Source: an uncultured Prochlorococcus sp. | Lineage (GTDB): Bacteria > Cyanobacteriota > Cyanobacteriia > PCC-6307 > Cyanobiaceae | Assembly (NCBI GenBank): GCA_902634515.1 | Contig: CACPKH010000007.1 | Coordinates: 1-55,558 of the forward strand | DNA: 55,558 nt | Reading direction: 5' to 3' | Shown here: one piece after another, positions 46,048 to 53,062 of the stretch | How the letters are laid out: each line of letters opens with the position of its first letter | Position numbering within the stretch: the first letter of the stretch is position 1 | Made by a program: the position numbers and the translations under genes | The notes under the pieces: model-generated | Databases searched by the model: none | What the model was told of the DNA's origin: nothing | What the model saw: the letters and a program-made list of their open reading frames with translations, nothing else

Positions 46048-49000
46048 TTACTTAGTTAGTTTCCTGCGTTGTGTGACTAGTTTGTATCCATTAATAATGT
46101 CACCTTCTTGCCAGTTAGCGAATCTATCGCAACCAATACCACATTCAAAACCACTAGCTACTTCTTTGACGTCATCCCTATTCCGACGCAGTGAGTCAAG
46201 GTCTCCTTCGAAAACTACTTGATCCCCACGATTAACCCGAACTCTACAATTCCGTTGTAATTTCCCATTATTGATATAACATCCGGCAACGGCACTTCGA
46301 CCAATAGTAAAGATAGCTCTTACCTCGGCTTGGCCTAGCTTTTCTTCTACCATGTCTGGCTCTAGGAGACCTTCCATTGCGGACTGAATATCCTCTAGAA
46401 GTTTATAAATGACTTCATAGTCTCTAACGTCTACTCCATTAGTATCTGCAGCTCGCTTTGCTCCAGATGCCATAGAGGTATTGAATCCAACAATTACCGC
46501 TCCAGATGCTGCTGCAAGGTCAACATCAGTTTCAGTAATTTCTCCTGGCGCAGAAAGAAGTACTCTCACTTGAACTTCATCTTTTGGCAATTGTTCTAGA
46601 GAACCTAAGATTGCTTCTATACTTCCTTGAACATCTGCTTTTAAAATTAAATTTAGTTCTTTTAAGTTACCTTCATTTGCTTGTCCCGACATTGATGAAA
46701 GAGACACTCGCCTAGTAGCCATTTGCTGAGCAAGTCGGGTAGCGCGTGCATCAGATGCTCTATCACCAACAATACTTCTTGCAGACTTTTCATCTTGATA
46801 TACTTCAAATTCATCTCCTGCGGTTGGAACTTCATTAAATCCAAGAGCTTCAACTGGGCATGAAGGTCCAGCTTCTTTAAGCCGTCCTCCATTTTCATCA
46901 ACCATTGCACGTACTTTACCTAGGACTTGACCAGCTGCTATAACGTCGCCGGACTTGAGTGTTCCATTTTGAATGAGCAATGTTGCTACAGGCCCTTTTG
47001 CTTTATCTAAGTGAGCCTCAATGACAGTGCCTTTGGCAAGTCGATCTGGATTTGCTTGTAAATCCTCTACTTCTGTAACAAGTAAAATCATCTCTAAAAG
47101 TTTGTCAATATTTTCTCCTTTAATTGCACTAACTGGAACCATTACAATATCTCCACCCCATTCCTCTGCTACTAACTCTTGCTCGGATAATTCTTGTTTA
47201 ACCCGATCAGGCGAAGAACCTTCTTTGTCAATTTTATTGATTGCGACAACTATTGGTACTTTTGCTGCTCGTGCATGGCTGATTGCTTCTAATGTTTGAG
47301 GGCGAACTCCATCATCTGCAGCGACAACAAGAACGGCTACATCCGTAACTTTTGTACCTCTTGCACGCATTGCTGTAAATGCTTCGTGTCCAGGGGTATC
47401 AAGGAAAGTTAGCTTTCTTTTTTGTTTTTCATGATCTATTTCAATTTGATATGCACCGATATGTTGAGTGATTCCTCCTGCTTCTCCAGCAGCAACTCTG
47501 GCTTTTCTAATAGCATCTAGAAGACTTGTTTTTCCATGATCTACGTGCCCCATCACAGTAACTACAGGCGGCCTTCTTATTAAATGCTTTTTATCAGCTT
47601 CTTCAATCATCTCAACAGTTTTCTTGGCTGCTTCTTCTACATCGTCTTGTAAAACTGGAACGCCAAATTCTTCTGCAACAGTTTCAATAGTTGATAGGTC
47701 TAATGATTCTGTAACGGTTGCTGTTATCCCTTTGAAGAACAGTGATTTAATAATTTCTGAACTTTCAACACTCAGTTTGTCAGCAAGCTCTTGAACAGTC
47801 AGATTATCTTCTGGAACAACTATCATTTCCGGTCTGACTTGCTTGGCTTCGCGAGCAGCTCTTAGTTCCATAGCTCTTCTCCGTTGTCTTTGACGAGTTG
47901 ATTCTTTTTTGCGTTTGCGATTGCCTGATGTTGTTTTAGGAGATGCTTTTTGATTATCTTTTGGCTTGTTAGAAGGACGGGCCAAGCTTGCAGATAGCAG
48001 AACAGCATCTTGTTCAGAAGCAAACCCACTAGTTTCTGTAGTTAAAGAATCATCATTTTCACCAATAATATGAACCTTCTGTCTTTGCTTTTGAGGGGTT
48101 TTATTTCTCAATGCTTCAAGCTTGGCAGAGTCATCCCAGTCAGATCTTCTCCTTCCGGAACCAGCTGCACCTGGCCTATGAGAGGGCTTTTTAGGCGGGC
48201 CTGAAGGAGTAGGCCTATTTGCAGTAGCAGGCCTATTTGCAGTTGGTTTTGTTCCACTAGATTTCTCTTTATTCGATCTATCAGAGGAATTCTCTGGTCT
48301 CCTTTGTTGTGGAGGCGATCCTGGTCGTCTTGGGGGTGTAGATCCTGAAGAACCACCAGTGGGCTTTTGGATCTGCATTAATTCTCCTGGTGCCACTGGC
48401 CTTCTCATGCCCGATGGCATTCCAGGCCTTTGACGCATTGGATTTCTTCCATCTCTTGGAGGTTTATTAGATGAAGAATTTGGACCACCTCGATAATTTG
48501 TCCCTCCCCCGCGATAGCCATCTCTATTCCTATTGGGATTAGGTTTGTTACGACGTATAGGAGCACCAACTAGTTCTAGTGAATTTCCTTTTAGAGAAGG
48601 CTTGCTTGGTTTATTGGGTAAAGCCTGTTTAGGTTGATTCTTTTGAGCTCTTACTTGCTTATTATTTCTTGGTTCTTGGCTCTTTGGACTATTAATGAGC
48701 CTGGCATTTCCAGGTTTGCTTGATTGAATAGGGCCCTTAGGTCTAGTTGGTGGCGGAGTGATTAGTGGCTTAGGTTGATTAAGTTTTGCTTTGGGTAAAG
48801 GTGGTTTATTCGTTAAGGGAGCTTTATGGGATTGAATCTGAGACGTTTGATTTTTCTCTAAATCTTTTTGACTTTGAGTGACTTTTTCAGGGGGTATAGC
48901 ATTAACACTAGTCTTTTGATGATTTGCTTTTTGAACAGATTTGATTTCAGGTTGTTTTTTTAGTGGAGTTGTAGACTGTTTAACTTCTTTTTCAGGAGGC

Positions 49001-49455
49001 CTGGTTGGTTTTTGAGGCTCATTTAGTTTTGAACTACTTGGATTGGCATTTCTTGATAAGCCAGATGTGGTTATTGATGGTTGACTCTTAGGCTTAGCAT
49101 TCAAAGAAGGACGTACTGGCGCCTTTGAAATGATTTGATTATTTTGAGAAGTCTTTTTGTGAGAGGAAATAGTTGATTTCTCTGATAACTTGTTTTTACT
49201 CTCAATAGGTTCTGAAACTGCCTTTTTTACTGACAAGATTTCTTTACCTTTAGGCTTATTTTTATTGTCATTACTGATATTGCTTTGCTTTTTACCTAAA
49301 AACTCTCTTATTTTCTTTGCCTCATTGTCACTAATTGAACTGCTGTGACTTTTGACCGTGATTGAAAGTTTTTTGGCTGCATTAAGCACGTCTTTATTTT
49401 CCAGGTTTAGGTCCCTGGAAAGCTCATAGATTCTAATTTTGCCGCTGCTGGTCAT
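46048..49455 (-). CDS. infB: translation initiation factor IF-2
   Basis: GTPase that places initiator tRNA on the 30S subunit. It has 1135 residues. The IF2-N domain ([20 protein letters not shown]) is followed by a very long low-complexity region of about 450 residues rich in Lys, Pro, Asn, Ser and Gly, with a local duplication around [14 protein letters not shown] second IF2-N-like helix bundle ([20 protein letters not shown]) precedes the G domain with [23 protein letters not shown] and NKIDKEG, then the C-terminal domains. A 14-base palindrome covers the ribosome-binding site. Confidence 0.98.
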
Positions 49456-49537: not shown

Positions 49538-49798
49538 TTAATCATGGCAGTGATCTAGCCTATTTCGCAGAACCTCTACAAGACTTAATTCCACCCGAGA
49601 TCTGAGTGCTCTTTGTAGACGTTTGCGTTTCCAAGCATCCTCAAGACAAGTTTCATTTGGGCATAGATATGCTGATCGACCCATGCCATTCTCGAGGACC
49701 ACTCCATCCCGATAATCTTTTGTCACTTTCCAAAGCTTTTTACGATCAATTAGCTTTTTACAAGCGACGCAACGACGTAGGACGGGACGTTGGTTCAC
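49538..49798 (-). CDS. ylxR: YlxR family RNA-binding protein
   Basis: Small YlxR/DUF448 protein, 86 residues, encoded in nusA-infB operons of many bacteria and thought to bind nucleic acid. Family motifs are RRCVACKKLIDRKKLWKVTK, the GRSAYLCPNETCLEDAWKR block and the basic KRLQRALR helix. The GTG start overlaps the nusA stop as GTGA (49795-49798), so translation is coupled to nusA. Confidence 0.92.
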   Translation of the reverse strand: MNQRPVLRRCVACKKLIDRKKLWKVTKDYRDGVVLENGMGRSAYLCPNETCLEDAWKRKRLQRALRSRVELSLVEVLRNRLDHCHD

Positions 49799-51216
49799 CG
49801 GGTTCCATCCTCTTCAGGATTAGTTTCATCTTCTATATTAGAAACTTTATCGGCTTCAGTATTCTCTTCGGGATTGGATTCATTTAATTCTTCTTCTTCT
49901 AAATCATTAGATTCTTCCTCCTCATCCTCAGGGAGTGGATAAAGTTCTCTTAAGCGAGCATCCTCTTCTGCTCTAGCTGCTTGTTCAGCAGCCAAACGTT
50001 CTTCAGCTTCTCTTTGTAGAGACTCCTCTTCTTCTCTTTGTTCTATTAGCTCTGCGACTACAGAATCTTCAGCTGCTTGATCATATTCTTGAGAATTCTT
50101 GATATCTATCTTCCATCCAGTTAACCTTGCAGCCAATCGAACATTTTGGCCTTCACGCCCTATAGCAAGACTAAGTTGATCGGGAGGAACAAGAACATGA
50201 GCATGTTGACCTTCTGGATCCACAAGTCTTACAACTTCTACTCTTGCTGGGCTTAATGAATTAGATATGTATTGAATAGGATCTGATGACCAACGAATGA
50301 CATCTATCTTTTCTCCACGCAGTTCATTTACTACTTGCTGAATTCTTGACCCTCTTGCTCCTATACATGCTCCAACAGGGTCCACTTCTCGTTCAAGGCT
50401 ATCTACTGCAACCTTTGTTCGAGGGCCTACAGATCTTGTCGGTGGGTTTGCTTCACGGGCAACGGCAACAATTTTAACTGAACCTTCTTGGATTTCAGGG
50501 ACTTCATTCTCAAATAAATAAACAACTAAACCAGCATTAGCTCTACTTACAAAAAGTTGAGGTCCCCTTCTTGGAACTTCACTAACTTCTTTAAGAAATA
50601 CCTTAAATGTTGCATTTGCCCTGTAATTATCATTGGGAAGTTGATCCCTTTTCGGTAGTTCTGCTTCAACTTCTGGTCTTCCTAAGCCTGAACTAACTGC
50701 CATTATTACTGATTGCCTTTCAAATCTAATAACTCTTGCTGTTAATACAGGGTCTTCCAAATCAGCAAATTCTTCCTGAATCATTCTTCGCTGTTGGTCT
50801 CTAAGCTTTTGGGCTAAAACTTGTTTCGTTGTGGAAGCTGCCATTCTTCCAAACTCTTCTTTTTCAGGAGTAACATCTAGTACTACTGTGTCCCCAATCT
50901 GTGCATCTTCTGCTACTTGCATAACCTCTGCTAAGGCTATTTGATGATCTTCACTTTCGACTTCTTCTACAATTATTTTGCTAGCTAACACTCGATAACC
51001 TTCTTCATCTAAATCTAGACCAACGTCAAAATTACTAAAATATTCTTCTTCAAATGGGTTCTCATTGATTCCTAGATAAAGAGTTCTTCTGTATCTTTCA
51101 TAGCCCTTTAACAAGGCTTCTCTAAGAGCAGTTTCTACGACTTGAGCAGGGAGCTTTTTCTCCTCGCTTATGTCTTCGATGAGGTTATTGAGTCCAGGGA
51201 GAAGAACTAGTGCCAT
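49795..51216 (-). CDS. nusA: transcription termination/antitermination factor NusA
   Basis: Binds RNA polymerase and modulates pausing, termination and antitermination. It has 473 residues. The N-terminal domain contacts polymerase, the S1 domain has DTVVLDVTPEKEEFGRMAAS nearby, and the two KH domains carry PVGACIGARGSRIQQVVNEL and IGREGQNVRLAARLTGW. The C-terminus is a Glu-rich acidic tail of about 80 residues rather than the AR repeats of E. coli. It follows rimP by 54 bases. Confidence 0.97.
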   Translation of the reverse strand: MALVLLPGLNNLIEDISEEKKLPAQVVETALREALLKGYERYRRTLYLGINENPFEEEYFSNFDVGLDLDEEGYRVLASKIIVEEVESEDHQIALAEVMQVAEDAQIGDTVVLDVTPEKEEFGRMAASTTKQVLAQKLRDQQRRMIQEEFADLEDPVLTARVIRFERQSVIMAVSSGLGRPEVEAELPKRDQLPNDNYRANATFKVFLKEVSEVPRRGPQLFVSRANAGLVVYLFENEVPEIQEGSVKIVAVAREANPPTRSVGPRTKVAVDSLEREVDPVGACIGARGSRIQQVVNELRGEKIDVIRWSSDPIQYISNSLSPARVEVVRLVDPEGQHAHVLVPPDQLSLAIGREGQNVRLAARLTGWKIDIKNSQEYDQAAEDSVVAELIEQREEEESLQREAEERLAAEQAARAEEDARLRELYPLPEDEEEESNDLEEEELNESNPEENTEADKVSNIEDETNPEEDGTR

Positions 51217-51270: not shown

Positions 51271-51738
51271 TTAACCTGTAGGGTTTGTAAGACGAACTTC
51301 TATAACGTCTTTTCGAGGAATTTTGCTTATCCTCCCTTTGATATTAATTATCAAATGAGCCTTGGTTCTTGCATGAAGTAAGCCACTTTTTAGAAGTTCA
51401 GAATTTTCCTTATTTCTAAAGAGTACTTCAATTGGGAACCCTTTGAACGTGTCATATTCTCGATCAGATTGAAGAACATCCCTTAAACCAGGGCTACTAA
51501 TTTCAAGTACGTATGGAGAATTAAGAAGTTGGGATAACTCAATTGCTTCTCCCATAGGTGTGCTGAAAAGCGCACAATCTTCTAAAGAAACATCCATTCC
51601 ATTTTTTTGACGGATTTGAACTTGAATGGTTAATGGAATCTTACTGGCATTAAATTTAATGCCAACAACTTCTAAGCCCTTCTCACCAGCTGCATTGGAT
51701 GCAAGATGCTTTAAATCTGTGACGATTTTATTAGACAA
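51271..51738 (-). CDS. rimP: ribosome maturation factor RimP
   Basis: 30S assembly factor, 155 residues. AAGEKGLEVVGIKFN, then VSLEDCALFSTPMGEAIE and YVLEISSPGLRDVLQSDREY, are the RimP signature. The start is TTG (51738); an in-frame stop lies four codons upstream, so no earlier start is possible. No clear Shine-Dalgarno sequence precedes it. Instead CCTGCCTC abuts the start and is complementary to a segment of the leader. It is the first gene of the rimP-nusA-ylxR-infB unit. Confidence 0.95.
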   Translation of the reverse strand: MSNKIVTDLKHLASNAAGEKGLEVVGIKFNASKIPLTIQVQIRQKNGMDVSLEDCALFSTPMGEAIELSQLLNSPYVLEISSPGLRDVLQSDREYDTFKGFPIEVLFRNKENSELLKSGLLHARTKAHLIINIKGRISKIPRKDVIEVRLTNPTG

Positions 51739-51760
51739 GAGGCAGGATTACATCGGGCAT
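51731..51760 (-). CDS. possible nine-codon leader peptide overlapping the rimP start
   Basis: ATG at 51760 opens MPDVILPLV and stops with TAA at 51731-51733, inside rimP codons 2-3, in a different frame. The ATG lies in the loop of the TCGGGC/GCCCGA hairpin. No ribosome-binding site is obvious. If translated it would place a ribosome across the rimP start. This is a suggestion, not an established gene. Confidence 0.25.
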   Translation of the reverse strand: MPDVILPLV

Positions 51761-51815
51761 AAGGCCCGACAGTTTCAGTTTTAACCTGCCTCCAATTAAG
51801 GAGGTAACCGTCAGG
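51739..51815 (-). promoter_or_regulatory. rimP operon leader with alternative RNA pairings
   Basis: Reading the minus strand, a first hairpin pairs CCTCC (51800-51804) with GGAGG (51789-51793) around TTAATT, extended by CCTG/CAGG. A second hairpin is TCGGGC/GCCCGA (51753-51769). The segment GAGGCAGG (51785-51792), part of the first hairpin, is also an exact complement of CCTGCCTC (51739-51746), which touches the rimP TTG. Thus one pairing leaves the start open and the other hides it. A minus-strand TATTAT at about 51833-51838 could be the -10 element. Read on the plus strand, the first hairpin is followed by six T and could be a terminator of an antisense RNA. Confidence 0.5.
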
Positions 51816-51928
51816 CTTTTTTATAATACTGGATTATCTTTTGTTTTTTATAATCACACTGTTTTTTGCTTTATTAGTTTCATTTGAATTAATCTATTTG
51901 AGGACGATTTAAAAAAATCGTTTTTTAA

Positions 51929-53062
<1,134 letters not shown>

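Follow-up and report, generated by a model that had tools for sequence, protein, structure and literature searches.

A probable two-state leader RNA with mutually exclusive conserved pairings upstream of rimP-nusA-ylxR-infB in Cyanobiaceae

Is the short leader in front of the rimP-nusA-ylxR-infB operon a switch, and if so, which of its pairings exclude each other and what would they control? To our knowledge, few regulators are known in Prochlorococcus and marine Synechococcus, and the control of transcription and translation machinery output is largely unknown in these organisms. The operon, whose products are ribosome-assembly, transcription, and translation-start factors, lies on the minus strand of the window (the whole 55,558-nucleotide stretch of DNA analyzed here), and an earlier note on this DNA had called its leader switch-like, with one strand able to pair either upstream in a CCTCC/GGAGG hairpin or downstream with a complement at the rimP start codon. 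Elsewhere, the rimP-leader (Naville and Gautheret 2010) was the most ubiquitous attenuator of its survey, with NusA feedback proposed, and feedback of NusA on its operon through leader hairpins is described for E. coli and B. subtilis, in the latter as NusA autoregulation by NusA-stimulated termination in the ylxS(rimP)-nusA leader (PMC2965389 and PMC12288461).

The start of rimP is well constrained, since an in-frame TAA stop just upstream of the TTG excludes a longer rimP in the window genome and leaves the TTG at 51738 as the only plausible start. An upstream start with GGAGG as its Shine-Dalgarno sequence seemed possible by eye in one relative (L004), and the in-frame stop of the window rules against it. 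The leader (Table 1) lies within a short divergent intergenic region (51739-51949) common to rimP and a plus-strand gene at 51950, which encodes a trypsin-like (HtrA/DegP-type) serine protease. Read 5' to 3' on the minus strand from 51816, it is GCCUGACGGUUACCUCCUUAAUUGGAGGCAGGUUAAAACUGAAACUGUCGGGCCUUAUGCCCGAUGUAAUCCUGCCUC followed by UUG. It is preceded by a -10-like box of the TANNWT type in 80 of 81 leaders (TAGAAT, TAGATT, or TACATT in relatives) at near-fixed spacing to the motif, with 59-61 nt (interquartile range; 81 leaders) between box and P5 core, so that the transcript probably begins no more than a few bases from the motif; in the window its start is expected at about 51814-51818, where P1 begins. 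The order in relatives is the -10-like box, GCCUGRCGG..ACCUCC..GGAGGCAGGU..CYGRUCGGGC..GUCCGA, and then UUG. The 103-nt window leader has a folding energy of -34.2 kcal/mol (z = -3.8 relative to dinucleotide shuffles, 1 of 200 of which was as stable), and no intrinsic terminator or terminator-like site was found in it.

Table 1. Positions of the operon genes and leader elements in the window
Feature	Positions	Strand	Sequence	Remark
rimP	51271..51738	-		first gene of the operon
nusA	49795..51216	-		
ylxR-like ORF	49538..49798	-		name from the earlier note and gene order
infB (IF-2)	46048..49455	-		name from the earlier note and sequence
rimP start codon	51736..51738	-	UUG	
-10-like box	51823..51828	-	TATTAT	
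P1/P2 5' strand	51806..51816	-	GCCUGACGGUU	pairs with 51774-51764 in state A
P3 5' arm	51800..51804	-	CCUCC	pairs with 51793-51789
P3 3' arm	51789..51793	-	GGAGG	state A
P4 hairpin	51776..51788	-		state A; CAG (51788-51786) with CUG (51778-51776)
Shared strand	51764..51774	-	AACUGUCGGGC	3' strand of P1/P2; seven of its columns pair in either state
P5 3' arm	51752..51758	-	GCCCGAU	state B
P6 5' strand	51785..51792	-	GAGGCAGG	state B; exact complement at 51746-51739
P6 3' strand	51739..51746	-	CCUGCCUC (DNA CCTGCCTC)	exact 8-base complement; abuts the start codon
Candidate P7 3' strand	51720..51727	-	AAUCGUCA	rimP codons 4-7; putative partner 51813-51806 (UGACGGUU)

For comparative analysis, 400 genomes of the family were searched for RimP, and 381 of them yielded a homologue. 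Leaders were collected from about 90 family genomes spanning more than 30 genera, and an 88-sequence Cyanobiaceae alignment, fitted to the first of two folds described below (state A), underlies the P1 and P5 pairing and covariation figures. The leader is recognizable by eye in nearly all closer relatives, a model of it (R1) detects it in 88 of 92 sources at E <= 0.001, and among named genomes its pattern was found in Prochlorococcus sp. MIT 0701, AG-409-P03, AG-412-I05, AG-363-B04, and AG-409-B13, which identifies the bacterial family as the Prochlorococcus/Synechococcus group. The model gives a single strong match per genome, which in the cases checked immediately precedes rimP. Weak additional matches in seven genomes (E 0.007-0.1; G410, G185, G021, G166, G007, G139, and G188), considered as second copies or occurrences outside the family, were treated as chance; those whose loci were inspected have no rimP nearby, and the one in G410 is about 105 kb from nusA. 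The core string in a viral contig (L159) was likewise attributed to chance: it falls inside an ORF in antisense orientation, and the model score there is only 12 bits (E 0.19). In 78 of 81 family genomes rimP begins with TTG, vs mostly Met at the aligned start in other cyanobacterial families. One genus (g17; L086 and L107), whose small, AT-rich genomes of about 1.7 Mb probably represent high-light Prochlorococcus, keeps rimP but lacks the whole element, with no leader match better than E 0.01 among the matches listed, and hence the leader is dispensable.

In the first of the two folds, state A, the leader forms a three-way junction at its 5' end, with conserved joining sequences, in which a P1/P2 stem closes the hairpins P3 and P4. 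In the predicted state-A fold of the window leader, which as a whole reaches -29.9 kcal/mol, this stem is an unbroken 11-pair helix. P1 was not part of the earlier note. It is paired in 94.0% of alignment cells and covaries on four pairs, its covariation of 0.280 was reached by no shuffle and compares with 0.03-0.17 (best 0.165) for slid controls, and its cognate energy was never equalled by strands swapped between genera (0/5000, five draws, one genome per genus). By minimum-energy folding under state A, at least four P1 pairs form in only 46 of 81 genomes. P3 (51804-51800 with 51793-51789) is the CCTCC/GGAGG hairpin of the earlier note; it is paired in 95.6% of cells, with compensatory changes on both sides at the outermost and innermost pairs. 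P4, paired in 77.6% of cells, is present in the state-A fold of the window leader. In freshwater-type genera (L074, L079, and L135) P3 carries a long insertion, and P4, with GCAG/CUGC, is stronger. The P3 5' arm is paired with GGAGG; its counterpart in genus g34 is GGAGGGUGAUC, near an extended Shine-Dalgarno sequence.

The alternative fold, state B, is built around the GC-rich hairpin P5 (GTCGGGC CTTAT GCCCGAT, minus strand 51770-51752; in RNA, UCGGGC..GCCCGA), which the earlier note had correctly located between its two partner strands. P5 is paired in 92.7% of cells with 32 double-change cells, its core G-C pairs are present in 85 of 88 sequences, and its covariation (0.272) was reached by no shuffle and compares with 0.01-0.12 (best 0.121) for slid controls; because P5 is absent from the state-A model to which the alignment was fitted, this pairing count is not favored by the fit. 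The 5' arm of P5, GUCGGGC (51770-51764), is part of the strand that closes P1/P2, so P1 and P5 cannot form together, and since both are conserved on one strand, the RNA must use both. As judged from the aligned sequences, this covarying, exclusive pair is the actual switch signature. The earlier description of the leader as switch-like thus stands with respect to conserved exclusive pairings, but the best-supported exclusive pair is P1/P5 rather than the one it named.

State B is the more stable fold, by 4.3 kcal/mol in the window (-34.2 vs -29.9) and with a median advantage of 5.1 across 81 genomes, and the minimum-energy structure of the window leader contains P5 and exactly the downstream pairing of the earlier note, here P6. 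Blocking P5 is predicted to open the region from -12 to +9 around the start codon in the window, from 0.43 to 0.92 unpaired; over 81 genomes the effect is modest, with a mean of 0.60 vs 0.52 and a higher value in 62 of 81. P5 ends 13-15 nt (interquartile range, 81 genomes) before the start codon, and the longest T run after it is at most two in 72 of 81 leaders, so no U-tract follows.

P6 was the centerpiece of the earlier note, all of whose positions proved right: GAGGCAGG at minus-strand 51792-51785 has an exact 8-base complement directly abutting the TTG (51738-51736). That such a complement is unlikely to arise by chance holds in the window genome, where P6 reaches -17.6 kcal/mol, 3.7 s.d. 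beyond shuffled partners, but not across the alignment at fixed register, where only 71.9% of cells are paired and 46 of 500 shuffles are as good. Of the two helices for which the earlier note had proposed a covariation test, P3 has changes on both sides; the covariation of P6 is not significant at fixed register. A register-free test favored the true partner over all genomes (0/20000), and with one genome per genus gave only about p = 0.006-0.16. P6 is strong (beyond z -1.64) in 38 of 81 genomes and is kept despite quite different sequence in L069 (GGGAGGGUGAU/AUCACCCUCUC), L083 (GGGGGAC/GUCCUCC), L056, and L067. In L006, L024, L028, L029, and L053 it is weak or missing, and in L003, the sampled congener of the window genome, it is reduced to GGAGGC/GUUUCU, a partial loss in a close relative that weakens the case for P6 and leaves that for the switch as a whole in place. 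From its distribution, P6 is best taken as an addition to state B that depends on the lineage.

A further candidate helix, P7, forms in the state-B minimum-energy fold of the window and is seen only in part of the family. Its UGACGGUU strand would be the one freed from P1, and P7 and P6 together would enclose the start codon in the window genome. Only two leaders, L003 and L046, read GAUGG instead of GRCGG, and the same two alone have Val replaced by Ile at codon 6, through a G-to-A substitution by which the P7 pair is regained; other genomes do not show such compensation, and P7 is therefore kept as a candidate only. As a general feature of the family it was rejected: between-genera swaps with one genome per genus did as well in 28-393 of 5000, the mean z against synonymous shuffles is -0.9, and P7 occurs mainly in three to five genera, in none of them far beyond synonymous shuffles.

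Outside the family, all 24 of 24 cyanobacterial loci inspected (L108-L131) carry a GTGGG..CCCRC hairpin followed by a TTTTT U-tract before rimP, and compared with these outgroups, Cyanobiaceae have kept the hairpin core, lost the U-tract, gained P1, and placed the hairpin at a narrow distance from a nearly invariant UUG. Position and core sequence suggest that P5 descends from the rimP-leader terminator. No Rfam family was detected in the window leader or in 17 relatives (E up to 5), a direct search with RF01770 gave no match at the window leader and none over its cut-off in two genomes of another family (G409 and G428), and none of 12 of the outgroup loci scanned reached any Rfam cut-off; RF01770 ("rimP") appears to be too narrow. 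Like the rimP-leader attenuator, the element sits directly upstream of rimP-nusA-infB and has a hairpin with a GGGc..gCCC core; unlike it, no U-stretch follows the hairpin, the score is below the RF01770 cut-off, and a conserved strand further upstream (P1) competes with P5 within a three-way junction, whereas the widespread form is described in PMC2965389 without an antiterminator or larger conserved element. The gammaproteobacterial tandem rimP-leader of the same paper is also similar in having two alternative pairings, CCCg..cGGG besides GGGc..gCCC, as do P1 and P5, but it has two terminators with U-tracts, and here there is one hairpin with no U-tract and a fixed start-codon distance. The B. 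subtilis ylxS(rimP)-nusA leader likewise precedes the same operon and is autoregulated, by intrinsic termination (cited in PMC12288461), whereas no terminator-like site was found here. The leader also resembles ribosomal-protein mRNA leaders with translational feedback, being a structured, lineage-restricted 5' leader of a translation-machinery operon in single copy per genome, though the rimP-nusA-ylxR-infB operon contains no ribosomal protein gene. Position and hairpin core were already known; the two-state junction lacking a U-tract is neither in Rfam nor in the open-access literature searched, where no earlier description of this leader was found.

What, then, would the exclusive folds control? 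Since the U-tract is gone, no terminator-like site is found, and the spacing to UUG is narrow, translational control is the simplest reading, and we consider it probable, if short of assured, that the leader is a two-state cis-regulatory RNA acting on the operon, most likely at rimP translation, with an operon product or ribosome status as the probable trigger. It is unlikely that control is transcriptional, with P5 descended from the rimP-leader terminator or pause hairpin, P1 as its anti-hairpin, and NusA setting read-through by acting on RNA polymerase at P5; the shared GGGc..gCCC core, the outgroup terminators, and NusA-stimulated leader termination in B. subtilis (PMC2965389 and PMC12288461) speak for it, but the missing U-tract, the lack of any terminator-like site in the window leader, and the narrow spacing between P5 and the start codon, which suggests ribosome access, speak against it. 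A NusA-dependent pause operating with no U-tract may be a variant of this reading.

That P5 and P3 are static stabilizing or RNase-processing elements, with the P1 complementarity only reflecting G+C-rich conserved sequence, would fit the consensus that RNAalifold itself returns, which has only the mutually compatible P3 and P5; we hold it improbable because P1 shows covariation at four pairs and outdoes every between-genera swap even though it and P5 exclude each other. A conserved, aptamer-like junction at the 5' end with an exclusive expression platform resembles the architecture of a small-molecule riboswitch, the three-way junction then being a metabolite aptamer, but metabolite riboswitches usually reach several metabolic genes, whereas strong matches here occur only upstream of the non-metabolic rimP operon, once per genome and in one bacterial family, and such an aptamer seems very improbable. 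We give the least credence to an RNA thermometer or cold-response leader in which temperature shifts the balance of states; the E. coli rimP-nusA-infB operon is cold-induced (PMC6511841) and the states differ by only a few kcal/mol, but the P1 and P5 pairs are conserved more tightly than a stability balance alone needs.

Under translational control by a two-state leader, we infer from the pairings which state would be on, how translation would be affected, and what the trigger may be. In state A, P1/P2 would close P3 and P4 and occupy the P5 and P6 strands, leaving the start region open; being transcribed first, this state could form first. In state B, the more stable by a few kcal/mol, the shared strand would move to P5, ending about 14 nt before UUG, and in many genomes, including that of the window, P6 (possibly with P7 into codons 4-7) would also close around the start codon. 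The trigger would probably be an operon product or ribosome status under its control (NusA, RimP, IF-2, or the 30S subunit), so that the operon would regulate itself by feedback, as the earlier note had thought plausible; the choice of likeliest trigger follows the precedent of NusA feedback on this operon in E. coli and B. subtilis.

The P3 5' arm, ACCUCCUU (51793-51804 region), equals the anti-Shine-Dalgarno sequence of the 16S 3' end. With its GGAGG and ACCUCC, P3 copies Shine-Dalgarno/anti-Shine-Dalgarno pairing, for which reason the leader may sense 30S subunits. On this ground we advance, as a rather unlikely and speculative scenario, that the rimP-leader attenuator lost its U-tract in Cyanobiaceae and was rebuilt as a translational switch that may respond directly to 30S subunits, free or immature (or to an operon product bound to them); if true, 30S sensing would set the output of the 30S-maturation and IF-2 genes.

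Together, the two covarying and mutually exclusive folds in front of the NusA/IF-2 operon, in the place of the most widespread bacterial attenuator, provide a concrete, testable element in Prochlorococcus and marine Synechococcus, and an example from nature of an attenuator whose control has shifted from transcription to (probably) translation.
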